A stretch of DNA of 64,000 nucleotides, from the NCBI GenBank assembly GCA_015709215.1, contig JACCQN010000007.1, forward strand, positions 1 to 64,000, in the 5' to 3' direction. The notes beneath the pieces were generated by a model. That model saw only the letters and a list, made by a program, of their open reading frames with translations. It searched no databases and was not told the origin of the DNA. Made by a program: the position numbers and the translations under genes. The stretch comes from Bacteroidales bacterium (lineage in GTDB: Bacteria > Bacteroidota > Bacteroidia > Bacteroidales > F082). This document shows positions 55,547 to 62,730 of this stretch, in pieces; the first letter of the stretch is position 1; each line of letters starts with the position of its first letter.

Positions 55547-55591
55547 GTGGAGCATAACGGAATCGAACCGTTGACCTTTTGACTGCCAGTC
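55547..55591. repeat. attL: partial tRNA-Ala 3' copy (45 bp)
   Basis: 45 bases identical to 62656-62700, which is the 3' half of tRNA-Ala(GGC) from the anticodon arm to the discriminator. The identity stops at the anticodon stem (GACTGCCAGTC), so this copy is not a tRNA gene but the left attachment site of the integrated element. Confidence 0.92.
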
Positions 55592-55676
55592 CTAATATTT
55601 TACTTTTCGTTTCTTATCAAAATTATATTTATTGTCTGTATTTCAGTGATTTACAAAGATAACATTTTATCGTTTG

Positions 55677-55708
55677 TTTGTGTTATTTATCAAAATAATG
55701 TATATTTG
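55677..55708 (+). promoter_or_regulatory. Integrase promoter overlapping arm-site repeats
   Basis: TTTG (55677-55680), 20-base spacer, TATATTTG (55701-55708). The -7 box runs into the first TTGTGTGCAAA repeat, so integrase or an accessory factor bound there should block transcription. Confidence 0.65.
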
Positions 55709-55727
55709 TGTGCAAATTGTGTGCAAA
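55706..55727 (+). repeat. Left arm-type sites (2 x TTGTGTGCAAA)
   Basis: Two exact 11-bp tandem copies. The related TGTGCAAAT occurs twice inside the right end (62588-62607). Pairs of short direct repeats inside both ends are typical of integrase arm-binding sites. Confidence 0.7.
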
Positions 55728-55797
55728 TTTTAATTTGAGCTAAGCCACGTAAATAAAGGCTTTCAGAAAATTGCACAAACGCAAAAAGGACAAAATT

Positions 55798-57066
55798 ATG
55801 CAAATTCAAAAGACTTATGCAATTAGCTTGTTTTTGGACACCCGCCGAAAAAAAGCAAACGGGCTGTTTCCTTTGAAGTTAAGGGTATTTGATAGCAGCA
55901 CAAGAAAAACCAAACTTTATTCAACAAAATTTGAATTTGAAACCGAAAAACATTTCAATTCAGTTTGGAAAACCGAAAAGCCCCGAAAGATTTATGAAGA
56001 CTTAAGACTTGAATTGTTGGCTGTTGAAAACCAAGCAAACAATGCTGCAAAAACTTTAACTGTTTTCACTTTTGAGGGTTTTGAGCAGGCAATGAAGTTT
56101 TTGACCAAAGGCAGGAAAAACGTTTTCAGTTATTACCAGCAGGCAACTGAACTATACAGGCAAAACGGGCAAATTGGAACAGCCACCAATTACGAACAAT
56201 CTTTGAAAAGCCTGAAACGATTTTGTCAAAAAGAATCTTTGCTGTTTACTGAAATTACCCCGCAATGGCTCCGAAATTACGAGCAGTTTATGACAACAAA
56301 AGGCAAGACTGTTCAACCTGGCAGCAAGCCAAAAGGACTTTCAATAACTACAATAGGAATCTATTTGCGCCCGCTTCGGGCAATCTTTAACACCGCTATT
56401 CAGGACAAATTAATTACCGCTGATCTTTACCCTTTCGGCCACCGGAAATACACCATACCAGCCCCAAAAGCCACCAAAAAAGCCTTAACCAAAGATCAGC
56501 TTAAAGCTTTGTTTGAGGCCACCCCACAAACACCCGAACAGGAAAAAGCAAAAGCCTTTTGGTTTTTTTCTTATTCGTGCAATGGCCTGAACTTTGCCGA
56601 TATTGCCCGCCTCAAATACAAAAATCTTTCAGCGGAAACCCTAAGCTTTCAAAGGCAAAAAACCAAAAACACCAACCGCACACAAGCCCCGATTAACGTA
56701 TTTATAACAGACTTTGCAAAGCAAGTAATTGAGCAATATGGCAGCAAGCCGGAAAGCCCCGAAAGCTTTATTTTTGAAATACTGAAACCCAAAAGCACCC
56801 CTGAACAACAGCACCGACAAATACAAAACTTCGTTCGTTTCGTAAACCAGCACTTTAAAAAGTTTGCCGACAACCTTAATATTCCAAACGTTTCGACCTA
56901 TACAGCCCGGCACACCTTTGCCACCAATTCAATAAGGCAGGGGGCAACAATGGAGTTTGTAAGTGAAGCCTTAGGCCATAGCAGCCTAAAAACAACCAAA
57001 GGATATTTTGCAGGCTTTGAGAGTGAAACCCGAAAGCAATTTGCCGAAAAACTCATGCAATTCTGA
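55798..57066 (+). CDS. Tyrosine-family site-specific integrase
   Basis: 422 aa. N-terminal arm-binding domain, SAM-like core-binding domain (about 115-215) and C-terminal catalytic domain. With the ATG 55798 start, ArgII is 371 (TARHTF), His394 (LGHSS) and the nucleophile Tyr403 (KTTKGYF). The first catalytic Arg is replaced by Asn (CNGLNFADIARL), and the usual HxxR reads YxxR, features shared with CTnDOT-like Bacteroidota integrases. It lies next to attL and acts on the tRNA-Ala anticodon arm. Confidence 0.95.
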   Translation: MQIQKTYAISLFLDTRRKKANGLFPLKLRVFDSSTRKTKLYSTKFEFETEKHFNSVWKTEKPRKIYEDLRLELLAVENQANNAAKTLTVFTFEGFEQAMKFLTKGRKNVFSYYQQATELYRQNGQIGTATNYEQSLKSLKRFCQKESLLFTEITPQWLRNYEQFMTTKGKTVQPGSKPKGLSITTIGIYLRPLRAIFNTAIQDKLITADLYPFGHRKYTIPAPKATKKALTKDQLKALFEATPQTPEQEKAKAFWFFSYSCNGLNFADIARLKYKNLSAETLSFQRQKTKNTNRTQAPINVFITDFAKQVIEQYGSKPESPESFIFEILKPKSTPEQQHRQIQNFVRFVNQHFKKFADNLNIPNVSTYTARHTFATNSIRQGATMEFVSEALGHSSLKTTKGYFAGFESETRKQFAEKLMQF

Positions 57067-57092
57067 TCTGAAACAACCAAAGCAAAAAGGAC

Positions 57093-57971
57093 ATGAACAG
57101 CAATTTTTACGAAATAGCAAGGGCAATAAATTTCTATTGGCCGGAACGTTTACCCCAACAGTTAGCAGATTTAGAACAGGCCTTTGAGGAACTAAAGGAA
57201 ATCTTAAAGGCAAACCAGCTAAACCACCCGGAAACATTCAAAGCTTATTGTTTGGCCTCATTGGCGCAAATTAATACAGAATATGAAAGATTACAGGGTA
57301 TTTACGAGAAAAAAGAGTCTGATTTGAATATTCTAAATTATAAATATTACCAGCGTGAAATAGTGTTTATTACTTTCATGGCTCAATTTCAAATTTTCAA
57401 ATATTTAGAAGTTTATTACCCAGAAACATTTTCGGGAGAATTTGGCAATTTACAAATTGGATTATCTTTTAATAAAGATTCATTTAACAAAAAATTTCAA
57501 AAGCTTCTAAAGTATAAAAAACAGCAGCCAGGCACACCAATAAACCCCGAACCCACAACAACAGAACAAATATTTTTGAAATTTAAAACCAAAGCAGATC
57601 GGGAAAACGTTTTTGATATTCTGAAAGTATATTTTGAAGGGCAAAAAAAAGAACTTTTGGCAACCTTAGAAAACAAACCTACCAAGCCGCTTTTGTGGCC
57701 GTTAAGCACTATACAACTAACTGAATTTTTTAGACGTTTAGAGTACAATGCTGTATTATTTAACAACCTAACAGATATTAAAGTTTGGCTTTGTGCAAAC
57801 TTTCTATTTGAAGACAAAGGGAAAATTAAACAGCTAAACCCCGAAACTGTATGGACTTATTTATCAAAAGCAAAAGGCAACCTTTCAAAAACAAAACGAA
57901 TAGGCTCCGAAATTGATTGGCTACCTTATTTAAACCACGACCAACAGAAAGAAAACAAAAAGCAAGAATAA
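57093..57971 (+). CDS. RteC-like protein (C-terminal similarity)
   Basis: 292 aa, soluble. The N-terminal half is predicted helical (LEQAFEELKEILKANQLN). The C-terminal segment (LLWPLSTIQLTEFFRRLEYN, NNLTDIKVWLCANFLFEDKG, VWTYLSKAKGNLSKTKRI) has the residue spacing of RteC, a conjugative-transposon regulator of excision. Here it follows the integrase by 27 bases. A regulator of excision is a reasonable inference, but the similarity is weak. Confidence 0.55.
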   Translation: MNSNFYEIARAINFYWPERLPQQLADLEQAFEELKEILKANQLNHPETFKAYCLASLAQINTEYERLQGIYEKKESDLNILNYKYYQREIVFITFMAQFQIFKYLEVYYPETFSGEFGNLQIGLSFNKDSFNKKFQKLLKYKKQQPGTPINPEPTTTEQIFLKFKTKADRENVFDILKVYFEGQKKELLATLENKPTKPLLWPLSTIQLTEFFRRLEYNAVLFNNLTDIKVWLCANFLFEDKGKIKQLNPETVWTYLSKAKGNLSKTKRIGSEIDWLPYLNHDQQKENKKQE

Positions 57972-57978
57972 AAAAACC

Positions 57979-58020
57979 ATACCCCAAAGGACTGTTTGGG
58001 TATTGCATGGGGTATTTTTT
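57979..58020 (+). terminator. Terminator with two competing partners
   Basis: ATACCCC (57979-57985) can pair with GGGTAT (57998-58003) or, better, with GGGGTAT (58009-58015), which is directly followed by TTTTTT. The last pairing is an intrinsic terminator after the RteC-like gene; the first would prevent it. An attenuator-like arrangement is possible. Confidence 0.6.
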
Positions 58021-58063
58021 GCTTATCACTTTTGCGCAATAATTCACAAATAAATTATTGCAC

Positions 58064-58417
58064 ATGGAAACCCCAACTTTTGAACAACTGCCAGCAGCAG
58101 TAAACCAGCTTAACCAAAAACTGGAAACTGTTTTGCAATTACTCAAACAGCAGCAAACAGAACCCCACAATTCAGGCAAACTCTTAACTATTGATGAAGC
58201 CGCCCAATTCCTGAACCTTGCAAAGCCAACAGTTTACCGATTGGTACACCTCCGGCAAATACCTTTCAGCAAGCCCAAAGGCTCTAAAAAACTCTATTTC
58301 AACAGGCCGGAACTGGAAGCCTGGATAAAAACAGGCCGCAAACGAACCGTGCAGGAAATACAGCAGCAAGCCGCTGATTTTGTTGTTTTGCCTGATCAAA
58401 AAAAAGCAAAGGGCTGA
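58064..58417 (+). CDS. Helix-turn-helix (excisionase-type, MerR/HTH_17) protein
   Basis: 117 aa from ATG 58064. N-terminal leucine/glutamine coiled coil, then LLTIDEAAQFLNLAKPTVYRLVHLRQIPFSKPKGSKKLYF, a winged HTH of the kind in excisionases and MerR-like DNA-binding proteins. A DNA-binding role in excision or in control of the replication genes is likely. Confidence 0.82.
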   Translation: METPTFEQLPAAVNQLNQKLETVLQLLKQQQTEPHNSGKLLTIDEAAQFLNLAKPTVYRLVHLRQIPFSKPKGSKKLYFNRPELEAWIKTGRKRTVQEIQQQAADFVVLPDQKKAKG

Positions 58418-58421
58418 ACCA

Positions 58422-58670
58422 ATGGCAAAAATACCAGCAGCCCAGCCCCCGCAAAAAGGACAAAGCAAATATAAGACATTTCAACCTATTTTGCGCCAAA
58501 ACCCAGCGGAGGTATTAGCAAACCTCTATTTTGAAAGCTTTGCACAATTCAAAAGCATAAGCCCCCACCTATCAGCCGGAAAGCAAATACAGCTTTTTGA
58601 TCAATCTTTCAATCTGATTTATTTAACCTTAACCCGAAAAACAAGCCGCCCGATATGGAAAAAACTGTAA
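58422..58670 (+). CDS. Small hypothetical protein
   Basis: 82 aa from ATG 58422 (MAKIPAAQPPQKG), rich in Gln and Pro at the N-terminus, otherwise helical (LANLYFESFAQFKSISPHLS). Starts 4 bases after the HTH gene stop and overlaps the DUF3987 gene by 16 bases. Not recognised. Confidence 0.5.
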   Translation: MAKIPAAQPPQKGQSKYKTFQPILRQNPAEVLANLYFESFAQFKSISPHLSAGKQIQLFDQSFNLIYLTLTRKTSRPIWKKL

Positions 58671-60070
58671 ACCGCCAAAACCTGAACAGCCCGGAAACCT
58701 TTTTAAACCACCTGGACAACCTTTTGAAGTTTGAAAGGGTAAACCCCAGCGAAAGCAAAGAAACCAAAGCAGCTGCAAACCCGTTTCCTTTAGAGGTATT
58801 TCCTCAACCTATTCAGGAAATAATAACAGCCACAAATAAAACTTTGAAATATCCAATTGATTTTACAGCAGCCGGAATACTTTTTGCCGCTTCAATTGCA
58901 ATCGGCAATACTTTTCAGGCAGAAGTAAAAAAGGGCTGGACTGAAAACGCTGTTATTTATTTAGCCTTAGTAGGTCGTTCAGGCACAAACAAAAGCCACC
59001 CTTTAAGCTTTGCCCTTGCGCCAATAATGGAAAAAGATGACCAGAACTTTTATGAATATTCAAAAGAAAAGGCCTTTTTTGATCAATTGGTAAACACACA
59101 AGCAAGCCAGCAGCAGGAAAAACAGCGAACAAAACCAATTCTGAAAAAGATACTTGTTTCAGACACAACGCCGGAAGCATTGGCCAATATTCACAATTTC
59201 AATAAACGAGGCATTGGAGTTTATGCAGATGAATTAGCAGGCTGGTTTAAATCGTTCAACAGATACCATAAAGGCAGCGAACAGGAATTTTGGCTAAGTA
59301 ATTGGAGCGGAAAGCCTGTAATTATTGACCGGAAAACCTCCGATTCAATAAGGATAAGCAAACCTTTCATTTCAGTTTGTGGCACAATTCAAACAAGCAT
59401 TTTAGATGAAATGGCCAAAGACAACAGAAACCAAAACGGATTTATTGACCGAATTTTAACAGTTATCCCGGACAATCTCAAAAACGAAACCTGGACTGAT
59501 AATGAATTGGACAAAGTTTATTTTGACAATTGGCAGGCAATTATTGAAAACCTGCTGTTAGAAAAGTTAAACTTATCTGAAATTGGAAAGCCTGAACCCC
59601 AAACTTTAATATTCAGCCCCGAGGCTAAAGCAATGCTTTATGATTGGCAAAAAAGAAATGCCGAAATATCAAACCGACAACAAAACGAAATGATAGCAGG
59701 CCTTTTCTCAAAGCTTCAAATTTATTCAATTAGGTTTTCGCTGATCTTACAAATGCTTTATTACGCTTGTGGAAACGAAAACAAGCAGACAATTCAATCA
59801 AAGGCTGTTAAAGGTGCATTAAAACTGACTGAATATTTTAAGCAAACAGCAATCAAAGTACATGGACTAATTAATGAAGGCAGCCCCTTAGATAAGCTAC
59901 CAGAAAACAAGCAAAAGTTTTATGATGCTTTACCGGATATTTTGACAACCAATGAAGCAATCGAACAGGGTACAAAATACGATATTTCAAAACGATCTGT
60001 AAAAAGATTTTTGAACGAAAAAAAACTGTTCAATAGGCTCATGCAAGGTAAATACGAAAAGACACTTTAA
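58655..60070 (+). CDS. DUF3987 P-loop protein (replication helicase/primase-like)
   Basis: 471 aa. The Walker A-like motif GRSGTNKS (107-114, Asn for the last Gly) follows the DUF3987 hallmark IDFTAAGILFAASIAIGN; YADELAGWFKSFNRY and LSNWSGKPVIIDRKT are also conserved. DUF3987 proteins recur in Bacteroidota mobile islands and are thought to be replication proteins related to primase/helicases. The C-terminal part (DALPDILTTNEAIEQGTKYD) looks like a winged helix. The iteron array starts 9 bases after its stop codon. Confidence 0.85.
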   Translation: MEKTVNRQNLNSPETFLNHLDNLLKFERVNPSESKETKAAANPFPLEVFPQPIQEIITATNKTLKYPIDFTAAGILFAASIAIGNTFQAEVKKGWTENAVIYLALVGRSGTNKSHPLSFALAPIMEKDDQNFYEYSKEKAFFDQLVNTQASQQQEKQRTKPILKKILVSDTTPEALANIHNFNKRGIGVYADELAGWFKSFNRYHKGSEQEFWLSNWSGKPVIIDRKTSDSIRISKPFISVCGTIQTSILDEMAKDNRNQNGFIDRILTVIPDNLKNETWTDNELDKVYFDNWQAIIENLLLEKLNLSEIGKPEPQTLIFSPEAKAMLYDWQKRNAEISNRQQNEMIAGLFSKLQIYSIRFSLILQMLYYACGNENKQTIQSKAVKGALKLTEYFKQTAIKVHGLINEGSPLDKLPENKQKFYDALPDILTTNEAIEQGTKYDISKRSVKRFLNEKKLFNRLMQGKYEKTL

Positions 60071-60078
60071 TAACATAG

Positions 60079-60293
60079 TGGCACTTTTGACACTTTTAGC
60101 ACTTTCAACAGTAAACAATTGTATTCCAATTTATTAAATAAAAAAGTTTGTGCCACTTTGTGCCAAAAATGCCAAATCGAAATACATAGAAATTTATGGC
60201 ACTATTGGCACTAATTGGCACTTTGTTAACAGTTTAAACACCAGTATATCAATATTATAAAACAGAAAGTGCCACAAGTGCCACAAGTGCCAA
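60079..60293. repeat. Iteron array: twelve GTGCCA units in four triplets of alternating orientation
   Basis: Triplet 1 (60080-60106): GGCACTTTT, GACACTTTT, AGCACTTTC in 9-base phase. Triplet 2 (60147-60176): TTTGTGCCAC, TTTGTGCCAA, AAATGCCAAA. Triplet 3 (60197-60225): TGGCACTAT, TGGCACTAAT, TGGCACTTTG. Triplet 4 (60267-60293): AAGTGCCAC twice, AAGTGCCAA. Triplets alternate strand and are separated by AT-rich spacers. It lies between the DUF3987 gene and DUF6371, as expected for an origin. Confidence 0.8.
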
Positions 60294-60321
60294 CCACCTA
60301 AAAAGCTAAAACTTTCAGATC

Positions 60322-61821
60322 ATGGAAAACTATCGCTTTCAACTTGAAAAAACCAGTAAAAAACACACTTGCCCCAGCTGCGGAAAACGCCGTTTTGTTC
60401 GTTTTATCGACACCCAAACAGGGCAATATTTACCCCCGATTTATGGCAGATGCGACCGTGAAGCAAACTGCAATTATTATTTAACCCCCTATGCTGATAG
60501 CTATGCAGCGGAGGTATTAAGGCAGGAAAAAGAAAACCAGCCCCCCCAATGGCAACCCCACCCGATACCAGCCCCCAAACCTCAACCATCTGCAAAGCCT
60601 GTTTATATTCCTTTTGAAATATTACAAGCCACCCGCACCCGGCCACTAAGCAAAAACACTTTTATTCAAAACCTTGCAACAAGCATTCCTTTTCCTTTTG
60701 AAATGCCTGATCTTAAAAAAGTAGCTGATCTTTACCAATTAGGAACCCTTGCAAAAGGCTATTTTGCAGGGGCAATAAGCTTTCCTTTTATTGACCAGGA
60801 AAGCCGTGTTCGGGCAATTCAGATCAAACAGTTTGATCAGCACAACCACACAACAAAAACAAGCTTTATTCATGCCGTATTAGACCACCACCACCGCCAA
60901 CAAAGCAAACCTTTGCCCGATTGGCTGAAAGCCTACCAGCAGCAGGAAAAGAAAGTTACCTGCTTATTTGGCGAACAGCTTTTGCCGCTTTATCCTGCAA
61001 ACCCTGTTGCACTTGTGGAGGCTCCCAAAACCTGTATTTATGGAACCTTGTATTTTGGCTTTCCTGATCAAAGCCCCGCAAACCTGCTTTGGCTTTCAAC
61101 CTTTAACCTTAGTAGTTTGAAAAAGGAAAAGACAAATGTTTTGCAAGGCCGAACTGTTATATTGTTTCCTGATCTTTCAGCAACAGGGGAGGCCTTCAAT
61201 ATATGGAGCAGCAGGGCAAAACAATTTGAAAAGGAAATGCCGGGAACCCGTTTTTTAGTATCTGATCTATTGGAACAAAATGCAACAGCAGCCGAAAGGC
61301 AAAAAGGCTTTGATTTAGCTGATTATCTTATTTTACAGGACTGGAAGCTATTTAGAAACCCAAACGATACACCAGCATCAAAACAGACACAGCAGCCACC
61401 ACAAAGCCCGAAACCTTTACCAGCACCAAAACAAAAGGAAACCGAAACACCAACAAACGAACCTGCAACAGTTAATCATAAAAACCCCGAACTAAGGCCG
61501 GAAACCCAAACAGCAGAAACCAGGCAGCAAAACAATAAATATTCAGTCTTTGATCAATTAGTTAATCAAAAACTTTTTCCTCCCGAAGCAAAGGAATTTT
61601 GGGAGTTAACAGAAATAGAAACCTATTTCAATAATTTGAAATCTTACCCCACCGAACCAATACACCTAAGCCAAGCAGAAATAATAAACGACCCTGCAAA
61701 GTTTGTTAAAGCACATTTAGCAACTGCAAAGGCTAACAATGGAAACCACCGCTTCAAACCCTATTTCGACCGCTTACAACAGCTAAAAAACATACTGGAA
61801 AGCCAACTAAAGCCACCCTAA
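60322..61821 (+). CDS. DUF6371 protein with zinc finger and Toprim-like domain (primase-like)
   Basis: 499 aa. The N-terminal finger has Cys17, Cys20, Cys44 and Cys50 (TCPSCG, CDREANC). The central part (VALVEAPKTCIYGT, ILFPDLSATGEAFNIW) resembles a Toprim acidic motif, as in DNA primases. The C-terminal region is Pro/Gln/Lys-rich and low complexity. Probably primes DNA replication of the element at the adjacent iteron array. Preceded by a 19-base leader shared with the 62133 gene. Confidence 0.8.
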   Translation: MENYRFQLEKTSKKHTCPSCGKRRFVRFIDTQTGQYLPPIYGRCDREANCNYYLTPYADSYAAEVLRQEKENQPPQWQPHPIPAPKPQPSAKPVYIPFEILQATRTRPLSKNTFIQNLATSIPFPFEMPDLKKVADLYQLGTLAKGYFAGAISFPFIDQESRVRAIQIKQFDQHNHTTKTSFIHAVLDHHHRQQSKPLPDWLKAYQQQEKKVTCLFGEQLLPLYPANPVALVEAPKTCIYGTLYFGFPDQSPANLLWLSTFNLSSLKKEKTNVLQGRTVILFPDLSATGEAFNIWSSRAKQFEKEMPGTRFLVSDLLEQNATAAERQKGFDLADYLILQDWKLFRNPNDTPASKQTQQPPQSPKPLPAPKQKETETPTNEPATVNHKNPELRPETQTAETRQQNNKYSVFDQLVNQKLFPPEAKEFWELTEIETYFNNLKSYPTEPIHLSQAEIINDPAKFVKAHLATAKANNGNHRFKPYFDRLQQLKNILESQLKPP

Positions 61822-62132
61822 AAACTTTTTAGCATCGTATATCTTTGAGTTATACGACTATTAATAAACCTTTGAGAACCTCGTGAATCACTGTATTTGA
61901 CGAATATATCAAAGTCTTATAATTCAGCACCTTAAACACAAACACAAACAAACCTAAAAAAACACACACAAACACCCTTGTAAACACCTTAATTACTTGT
62001 TTATCAAACACTTACCCCATAGGGGGTTCAACATAACAAGATGCTATTTTAGTAATCGATGCCCTAAGGGTATTCATTCACGTGCAAAATTGAGGAAAAA
62101 GGGTAATTTTTTAAACCTTAAACTTTCAGATC
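61822..62132. other. Non-coding A/C-rich region before the terminal small gene
   Basis: No frame is credible. The plus strand is strongly A/C-biased (runs of AACACAAACA type), followed by short palindromes CCCCATAGGGG (about 62014) and TACCCTTAGGGCA-type symmetry (about 62060). It ends with the shared leader AAACTTTCAGATCATGGAA. Candidate regulatory, transfer or replication DNA, but nothing is assigned. Confidence 0.4.
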
Positions 62133-62435
62133 ATGGAACCCGCAATGGAACAAAAACAGAAATTTGAAACTGCTGCAAAGGCCTTTTTGCTTTTTCAATT
62201 TGTTAACGGGAAAAAAAGCAGATTAACCCGTTTACTTTTTGAGCAGGACAAAAACATTTACTTAATTCTGCAAATGGCACTTAGCGAAATAACAGTTTTA
62301 AGCCGCTGCAAAACACTTTCAAAAAGTGATAAGCAATTTATTGAAGCTTTGGCCGACCTTGCCAGCAATGCCGCCGATTTACTTTATTTTGAAAGTGCGA
62401 CAAAGATCAGCTTTGAATATTTGTTGCAGCAATAA
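62133..62435 (+). CDS. Small helical protein of unknown function
   Basis: 100 aa, almost wholly helical by composition (FETAAKAFLLFQFVNGKK, SDKQFIEALADLASNAADLL). Its start is preceded by the same AAACTTTCAGATC leader as the DUF6371 gene, so the two may share control. Followed by a strong terminator. Not recognised. Confidence 0.6.
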   Translation: MEPAMEQKQKFETAAKAFLLFQFVNGKKSRLTRLLFEQDKNIYLILQMALSEITVLSRCKTLSKSDKQFIEALADLASNAADLLYFESATKISFEYLLQQ

Positions 62436-62451
62436 GGCAAACAGCAACAGC

Positions 62452-62489
62452 AAAAAGCCGGAACCTATTTTTTAGGCTCCGGCTTTTTT
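62452..62489 (+). terminator. Strong intrinsic terminator at the element's right end
   Basis: AAAAGCCGGA (62453-62462)/TCCGGCTTTT (62478-62487) stem with inner partial pairing CCTA/TAGG, followed by TTTTTT. Confidence 0.88.
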
Positions 62490-62586
62490 ATTTGTGAAAG
62501 CCTGGTTAACACCTCCGGCCTGATCTTATAAACCCGCTTTGAAATACTGCAATGATCTGCAAGCTTTTTCGTTTTGAGGGGCAAAA

Positions 62587-62607
62587 GTGTGCAAATTTTG
62601 TGCAAAT
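62587..62607 (+). repeat. Right arm-type sites (2 x TGTGCAAAT)
   Basis: TGTGCAAAT occurs at 62588-62596 and 62599-62607, echoing the left-end repeats. Confidence 0.65.
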
Positions 62608-62610
62608 GAA

Positions 62611-62645
62611 AAAAGGCTACAAACTTTAAAAGCTTGTAACCTTTT
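62611..62645 (-). terminator. Element-encoded terminator for tRNA-Ala
   Basis: AAAAGG...CCTTTT hairpin with a further partial stem, followed on the minus strand by T-rich sequence. It lies 12 bases downstream of the tRNA-Ala 3' end, inside the element, and replaces the terminator left at 55506-55537. Confidence 0.65.
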
Positions 62646-62655
62646 GATTTTTAGT

Positions 62656-62700
62656 GTGGAGCATAACGGAATCGAACCGTTGACCTTTTGACTGCCAGTC
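62656..62700. repeat. attR: right 45-bp attachment repeat within tRNA-Ala
   Basis: Identical to 55547-55591. It spans the 3' end to the anticodon stem of tRNA-Ala. Confidence 0.92.
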
Positions 62701-62730
62701 AAACGCTCTAGCCAACTGAGCTAATGCCCC
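62657..62730 (-). tRNA. tRNA-Ala (anticodon GGC)
   Basis: Minus-strand cloverleaf, 74 bases: acceptor GGGGCAT/ATGCTCC, D-stem GCTC/GAGC, anticodon arm TTTGA-CTGGCAG-TCAAA with GGC, T-arm AACGG-TTCGATT-CCGTT. Its 5' half is chromosomal and its 3' half belongs to the integrated element, so the gene is restored. Confidence 0.94.

Follow-up and report, generated by a model that had tools for sequence, protein, structure and literature searches.

The window (the whole 64-kb stretch of DNA that was analysed) contains an integrated element that spans 55547 to 62700, or about 7.1 kb. It is bounded by a 45-bp direct repeat at the 3' end of a tRNA-Ala gene. Its genes, and the repeat array that lies between two of them, are listed here by coordinates and strand.

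55547..55591, no strand: left att copy, 45-bp direct repeat
55771..57066, plus: tyrosine integrase (Phage_int_SAM_5 and Phage_integrase in Pfam)
57093..57971, plus: 292-aa protein of unknown function, with related ORFs in loci L050, L053 and L067
58064..58417, plus: HTH_17 (excisionase/AlpA-like) protein by Pfam, an unlikely reader of the array
58380..58670, plus: 96-aa ORF of unknown function, between the HTH_17 and helicase genes
58655..60070, plus: DUF3987 helicase, 471 aa, the proposed initiator (Pfam E 1.2e-54; MCM-like predicted fold)
59885..60067, plus: predicted C-terminal winged helix of the helicase, residues about 411-471, with the recognition helix at 446-453 including K450 and R451
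60079..60102, minus: triplet T1, sites at 60079, 60088 and 60097 (TGGCAC, TGACAC, TAGCAC), steps 9 and 9
60103..60149, no strand: AT-rich centre of dyad 1, 47 bp, 83% AT
60150..60174, plus: triplet T2, sites at 60150, 60160 and 60169 (GTGCCA, GTGCCA, ATGCCA), steps 10 and 9
60197..60221, minus: triplet T3, sites at 60197, 60206 and 60216 (three exact TGGCAC), steps 9 and 10
60223..60268, no strand: AT-rich centre of dyad 2, 46 bp as measured, 78% AT, aligning directly with the centre of dyad 1
60269..60292, plus: triplet T4, sites at 60269, 60278 and 60287 (three exact GTGCCA), steps 9 and 9
60322..61821, plus: protein with Zn_ribbon_16, DUF6371 and DUF6965, predicted DnaG/T4-type primase fold
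62133..62435, plus: 100-aa ORF of unknown function at the element's end
62656..62700, no strand: right att copy, inside the tRNA-Ala gene (62656-62730, minus strand)

An empty site, where the flanks are joined with a single copy of the repeat, is present in three of six other genomes of the same genus (G548, G551 and G552). In this comparison G547 and G550 matched in short pieces only, and G549 was left out. Of what defines an integrative and mobilizable element, the integrase and the site-specific att repeats are present, and by Pfam a relaxase of its own is absent: among the element's seven ORFs, Pfam gives no match to a relaxase, nor to a Rep_3-type initiator.

Direct repeats of GTGTGCAAATT are found close to both element ends, at 55708-55729 and 62587-62597. 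The window holds three exact copies, located only near these ends; they are possibly the arm sites of the integrase. The same genome also contains a second DUF3987 homologue (L288, G000:C4:49369-50460), with 31% identity and a different C-terminal HTH; no array was seen by eye in the roughly 300 bp past its stop.

The gap between the DUF3987 and DUF6371 genes runs from 60071 to 60321 and measures 251 bases. At 60079-60292 it holds twelve GTGCCA-type sites, nine exact and three with one mismatch, in four triplets on the minus, plus, minus and plus strands. T1 begins 8 bp past the helicase stop. The original prediction had described just this, twelve GTGCCA-core sites in four alternating triplets phased at 9-10 bases within a 251-base gap, and both coordinates and shuffles confirm it. 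These are the sole such triplets in the 64-kb window, where the chance level is a mean of 0.02 triplets per dinucleotide-shuffled window (100 shuffles).

T1/T2 and T3/T4 appear to be one minus/plus dyad present in two direct copies. Aligned with each other they score 89 forward and 78.5 as reverse complement; for the AT-rich centres this is 36 forward versus 21.5 reversed, with shuffles at 14 +/- 5.5. In both dyads it is 53 bp from the last minus site to the first plus site. The exact DnaA-box consensus TTWTNCACA does not occur in 60071-60321.

The DUF3987 protein is predicted to be an MCM-like AAA+ ring helicase with a C-terminal winged helix. Its AlphaFold model has a pLDDT of 80, with 71-91 in the winged helix. 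Foldseek matches the model to MCM with a best E of 2.4e-5 (TM 0.41/0.28), and a VIA comparison with MCM chains gives a Z of up to 16.9 over 282 residues (rmsd 4.5, model 47-424); all rows shown of that comparison are MCM. For the DUF6371 protein a DnaG/T4-type primase fold is predicted. Its model (pLDDT 84) matches T4 gp61 and DnaG primases at E 1.9e-5 and up, with low TM (about 0.2-0.35), and the alignment has a conserved Cys ribbon and Toprim-like acids. Searching PDB sequences with the DUF3987 and DUF6371 alignments gave nothing significant (best E 0.27). DUF3987 was predicted earlier to be a helicase of mobile elements, according to PMC5862659.

Relatives were found through the primase, which makes DUF6371 as a neighbour a selection effect. 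At the level of the order, 56 of 393 genomes have a DUF6371 match, and at the level of the family 29 of 173 do; both counts include the window's own genome. The genome-contig scan covers the best 80 of 546 confirmed DUF6371 loci and the viral-contig scan the best 80 of 119; plasmid records gave 11 loci and phage records 6. In the viral-contig protein scan the single window sequence found no relative, and an alignment query found relatives. This came to 240 loci read, 205 with the gene start and enough upstream DNA, and 186 distinct. Several DUF6371 copies in genomes of the window's family are interrupted by in-frame stops, which suggests that these elements are decaying.

Paired inverted triplets were sought with a detector that takes no account of the word, from -350 to +50 around the DUF6371 start and with a cut of 28. 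Paired triplets are found at 59 of the 186 distinct loci, versus 8 of 4674 control windows drawn from those loci. Fisher's p is about 6e-79, which overstates independence because the loci are related. The remaining 127 of 186 score below 28. By helicase class the positives are 39 of 58 for AAA_25, 8 of 30 for DUF3987 (15 of 30 at a lower cut of 24), 8 of 45 for the D5 type and 4 of 53 for other or none. The array had been predicted to recur in related elements, and it does so, also in the window's own helicase class.

Among D5-type loci, 34 of 45 score below 24, and a wider scan of these (-6 to +4.5 kb) reached 26 in two of the 34, neither of them convincing. In L060, a D5-type locus without an array at DUF6371, a paired triplet of full score is present in another part of the 15-kb locus (control maximum 36).

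By Pfam, the helicase slot is filled by three unrelated families: AAA_25, DUF3987 and D5_N/DUF5906/Pox_D5. Core words vary between elements, and include GTGCCA, GTTACA, GTGAAC, GTACGA, GGGACA, GTGAAG, ATGTAG and others. The common layout in Bacteroidota mobile elements, including those of Tn4555 type, is a minus triplet and then a plus triplet at the end of the helicase gene, before DUF6371. The strict alternation of triplets, which the original prediction singled out as more ordered than usual, holds in the window. It is not general, because two relatives (L056 and L096) with about twelve sites each have the order minus, minus, plus, plus; the common unit is the minus/plus dyad of triplets. 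The AT-rich centre is not general either, because many relatives have compact dyads, with few bases between the arms. Degenerate site copies occur in T1 and in some relatives. The named relatives are Bacteroidota, except for three MAG contigs labelled otherwise (L117, L133 and L156) and one labelled only Bacterium. Isolates with such an element include Natronoflexus pectinivorans DSM 24179 (L113) and Cyclobacterium roseum.

Relaxase-less relatives have a conserved zinc-finger-like and HTH ORF (MSSNIQVQRICQHCG and similar) 5' of the integrase, for example at 2001-2585 in L096, 6268-6684 in L171 and 1231-1824 in L173. The 15.7-kb circle NZ_OY725959.1 (L044) of Bacteroides finegoldii carries a helicase/primase module of Tn4555 type together with a second such module that has MobC and a relaxase.

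In sequence comparisons, the word of the array tracks the C-terminal HTH of the helicase, not the HTH_17 protein. When words in the AAA_25 set are predicted from the nearest neighbour, the helicase C-terminal HTH gets 24 of 31 right, the body 10, DUF6371 13 and HTH_17 11; relatives with at least 70% body identity were excluded here, and the base rate is 18% of pairs. Under a stricter exclusion (55% body identity) the lead is smaller, with 12 of 31 for the tail, 8 for the body, 9 for DUF6371 and 3 for HTH_17. Mantel correlations for the AAA_25 set (aligned HTH, 3+3 sites) are 0.466 for the tail, 0.301 for the body, 0.274 for DUF6371 and 0.205 for HTH_17. A cruder first Mantel analysis of 48 loci, based on the last 75 helicase residues and noisy cores, did not have the tail ahead (tail 0.28, body 0.35, DUF6371 0.09, HTH_17 0.14). 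For the refined test L111 and L179 were removed by hand (doubtful tail or class), and the HTH_17 match is absent in 9 of 40 loci. L041, L047 and L182 stayed in although their detected triplets come from two dyads, a choice that works against the tail.

In the alignment shown, six GTGAAC loci have the helicase tail SQRxI...SxGxVNKY, and six GTACGA loci have [SP]N...[ST]EG[AS][IV]RK. The loci L269 and L271 are 100% identical in HTH_17 (76 residues), 97% in DUF6371, 78% in the helicase body and 43% in the helicase tail; their words, TGAGAA and TGGGAC, differ. All this points to the helicase tail as the part that reads the repeats. The HTH_17 protein was considered as the array binder and rejected: closely similar HTH_17 proteins occur with different words, and different ones with the same word. 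Of the two candidate initiators originally put forward, DUF3987 is favoured, with a word that tracks the helicase tail, and the HTH protein at 58064 is not, as words do not track it.

Within the DUF3987 loci, the residues at the K450-R451 position appear to go with specific words. Where these are KR, TGCCA is the commonest TGC word in 10 of 10 loci, versus 1 of 20 others. KY goes with TGCAA in four of four DUF3987 loci, and KD with TGCAT or TGCAG in three of three. Cyclobacterium roseum (L099), for instance, has KR and TGCCA, and Aestuariivivens sediminicola (L088) has KY and TGCAA. On a tree of the helicase body, KY occurs in four separate places, beside KR relatives: L064 is next to L065 (KR; support 100/100), for example, and L069 next to L070 (KR; 99/97). 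This takes at least four changes, each together with the word (TGCCA or TGCAA). On the body tree the KR label shows no more clustering than shuffled labels do (147 of 500 shuffles score as low), and the KY label shows none (500 of 500); repeated switching gives such a pattern.

A held-out set of 32 loci excludes L293, L311, L312 and L328 (already used, or the window genome's own). At least two copies of TGCCA in 180 bp at the helicase end are found in 6 of 9 KR loci (L294, L314, which is weak, L316, L317, and the near-copies L322 and L323), versus 0 of 23 others. The three KR loci without the word are L302, L315 and L320. L320 is an exception to the code, with a KR helix and a GGTCCTTT-type repeat after the helicase. 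All six held-out ER/DR loci have at least five copies of CGCCA, a word named post hoc. One QR locus out of three has it too, while in the first set its counts in the three ER loci are only 1, 0 and 3. AACCG, the advance guess for ER loci, is not the best word there. The putative residue-to-word code is imperfect.

In position the array goes with the 3' end of the helicase gene and not with the primase start. Out of 57 arrays with a helicase ORF, 38 are past the stop, 15 across it and 4 in frame, and 33 of the 38 downstream arrays are within 37 bp of the stop. The distance to DUF6371 varies among loci. This bears on the alternative that survives best, unlikely as it is, in which the array is an operator whose sole purpose, when bound by the helicase or some other protein, is to regulate the primase gene downstream. 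Iteron initiators often autoregulate, and at many loci no more than 20 bp separate the end of the plus triplet from the DUF6371 start. However, the array follows the helicase 3' end and lies across the stop or in frame in 19 of 57 loci. Its word also tracks the tail of a ring helicase, and the known helicases of such a design bind origins.

A further step down in likelihood is a role on single-stranded DNA, where the array would be a priming or helicase-loading site for complementary-strand synthesis after conjugal entry. The primase gene does adjoin the array, and some relatives, of Tn4555 type, are mobilizable and have a mobilization protein. But a word that follows an HTH suggests double-stranded sites, and the window element's seven ORFs yield no relaxase in Pfam. 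In 31 loci the linkers of hairpin partners pair at 71 of 186 bases, versus 97 of 186 for non-partners; because partners pair less, no hairpin appears to be selected.

It is very improbable that the array binds the HTH_17 protein as an excisionase or regulator. Xis proteins bind phased direct repeats, and the window's HTH_17 protein matches phage excisionase families, but an identical HTH_17 is found with different words in L269 and L271, and the att sites, which have a different repeat nearby, are 2.4-4.7 kb away from the array. Chance or drift without function, for which the degenerate copies in T1 and some relatives might speak, is negligible next to the shuffled-window level, the enrichment at DUF6371 and the covariation of word and helicase.

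Some relatives are circular. Among the viral-contig loci (best 80 of 119, many excerpted from longer contigs) are five that end in direct repeats of 114-127 bases. Three of these, the circular contigs L171, L173 and L176, of 6-8 kb, have the integrase, HTH_17, an AAA_25 helicase, the array and DUF6371; by eye, no relaxase, virion or other replication gene was recognised among their listed ORFs. In the other two, L183 and L227, the array is undetected or the locus falls outside the scored set. The complete circular contigs L117 and L121 (terminal repeats of 99 and 55 bases) have a D5-type helicase and DUF6371, with no detected array. CP103138.1, a circular B. fragilis record of Tn4555 type and 10,057 bp, has its array at 1008-1068, inside the helicase frame, and no other replication gene is annotated in the PLSDB gene tables, which are incomplete. 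The circles of relatives could be excision products without replication.

Taken together, the window array is probably the origin from which the ~7.1-kb tRNA-Ala element, once excised as a circle, replicates. The original idea of an iteron-type origin in a tRNA-integrated element is thus upheld as the best reading. The array, the element ends, the occurrence in relatives, the covariation of word and tail, the predicted folds and the circles of relatives were all computed directly. From the covariation we infer that the C-terminal domain of the helicase binds the array, and further steps would then follow, from physical binding through the loading of two rings, melting and priming to replication. 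The DUF3987 winged helix would bind the GTGCCA sites, with K450 and R451 helping to set the word. Neighbouring subunits of a single helicase ring would sit on each triplet. With its triplets on opposite strands, a dyad would point two helicases in opposite directions, and the AT-rich centre between the triplets would melt. The DUF6371 protein, encoded just downstream, would prime, and a host polymerase would finish.

In classical iteron plasmid origins (RepA/RepE type), phased short repeats are bound by an initiator that the element encodes. The window differs in that the proposed initiator is itself a helicase, and in having no Rep_3 match and no exact DnaA box. The original prediction overstated how unexpected replication is for an integrated island: SaPI provide a replication-initiator precedent, and SGI1 reportedly replicates (PMC7826253). 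It also went too far in knowing of no initiator of this kind: PMC7581432 describes two such helicases, SaPI Rep and SCCmec Cch2, in each of which a C-terminal domain recognises iterons that directly follow the helicase gene. This means that the kind of origin is already known.

According to the same paper, SaPI is an excising island that also encodes a primase (PMC7581432). The window resembles SaPI Rep in having its array directly past the helicase gene and a predicted C-terminal winged helix. It differs in its DUF3987/MCM-like helicase, its separate DnaG/T4-type DUF6371 primase, its inverted triplets, its Bacteroidota hosts and in having no known helper phage. The sole Pfam match of the window helicase is DUF3987, with no family of SaPI-Rep type; it is set apart from SaPI Rep by description. 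For SCCmec, the accessible portion of PMC7581432 has three AAGTG iterons after the Cch2 gene, an MCM-like Cch and primer synthesis by CCPol-MP; it does not describe an inverted triplet dyad like that of the window, nor show SCC replication in vivo.

Tn4555 is a Bacteroides mobilizable transposon with cfxA. From PMC13183296 together with the loci analysed here, it has the same replication module, with an AAA ATPase, 3+3 GGGACA sites and DUF6371. Its helicase is of the AAA_25 type, in contrast, with the array inside the end of the helicase gene, and it has mobilization and beta-lactamase genes that are absent from the window element. The PICMI phage satellites of Vibrionaceae, as described in PMC10803314, have an integrase, an HTH_17/AlpA-type regulator and DUF3987, insert in fis, include DUF5906 in their model and have a helper phage that was shown. 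The window element is likewise small and has integrase, HTH_17 and DUF3987 genes. It is in tRNA-Ala and not in fis, however, has a DUF6371 primase, and its named relatives, apart from the four contigs noted above, are Bacteroidota.

No paper describing such an array was found in the searches of open-licence literature, a search that the Tn4555 papers of the 1990s-2000s fall outside of. New with respect to the literature searched, in that they were not met there, are the inverted-triplet geometry, three helicase families on such a geometry, the specificity code and the presence in Tn4555.

With somewhat better than even confidence, a broader statement can be made. Bacteroidota mobile elements would share one origin design, of inverted triplets at a 9-bp pitch, beside a DnaG-like DUF6371 primase. 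Three ring helicases that are unrelated to one another (MCM-like DUF3987, RecA-type AAA_25 and the D5 type of SF3) would use it, and each would have a C-terminal reader of its own. Reader and repeats would change together through a short residue-to-base code, and so act as swappable specificity (incompatibility) cassettes. Many carriers would be relaxase-less circles of ~6-8 kb, acting as self-replicating, integrating minimal replicons, of which no description was met in the papers searched.

Given the covariation of residue and base, the specificity of an initiator can be predicted from its sequence and tested with pairs of natural proteins. If this picture is true, the sharing of one origin geometry by three helicase families would be relevant to how ring helicases load at a double-stranded origin without a separate loader. 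It would also mean that Bacteroidota mobile elements, among them Tn4555 and its beta-lactamase gene, have an origin that raises their copy number and that went unnoticed in the literature found. The reading of excision, dose and transfer of these elements would then change.
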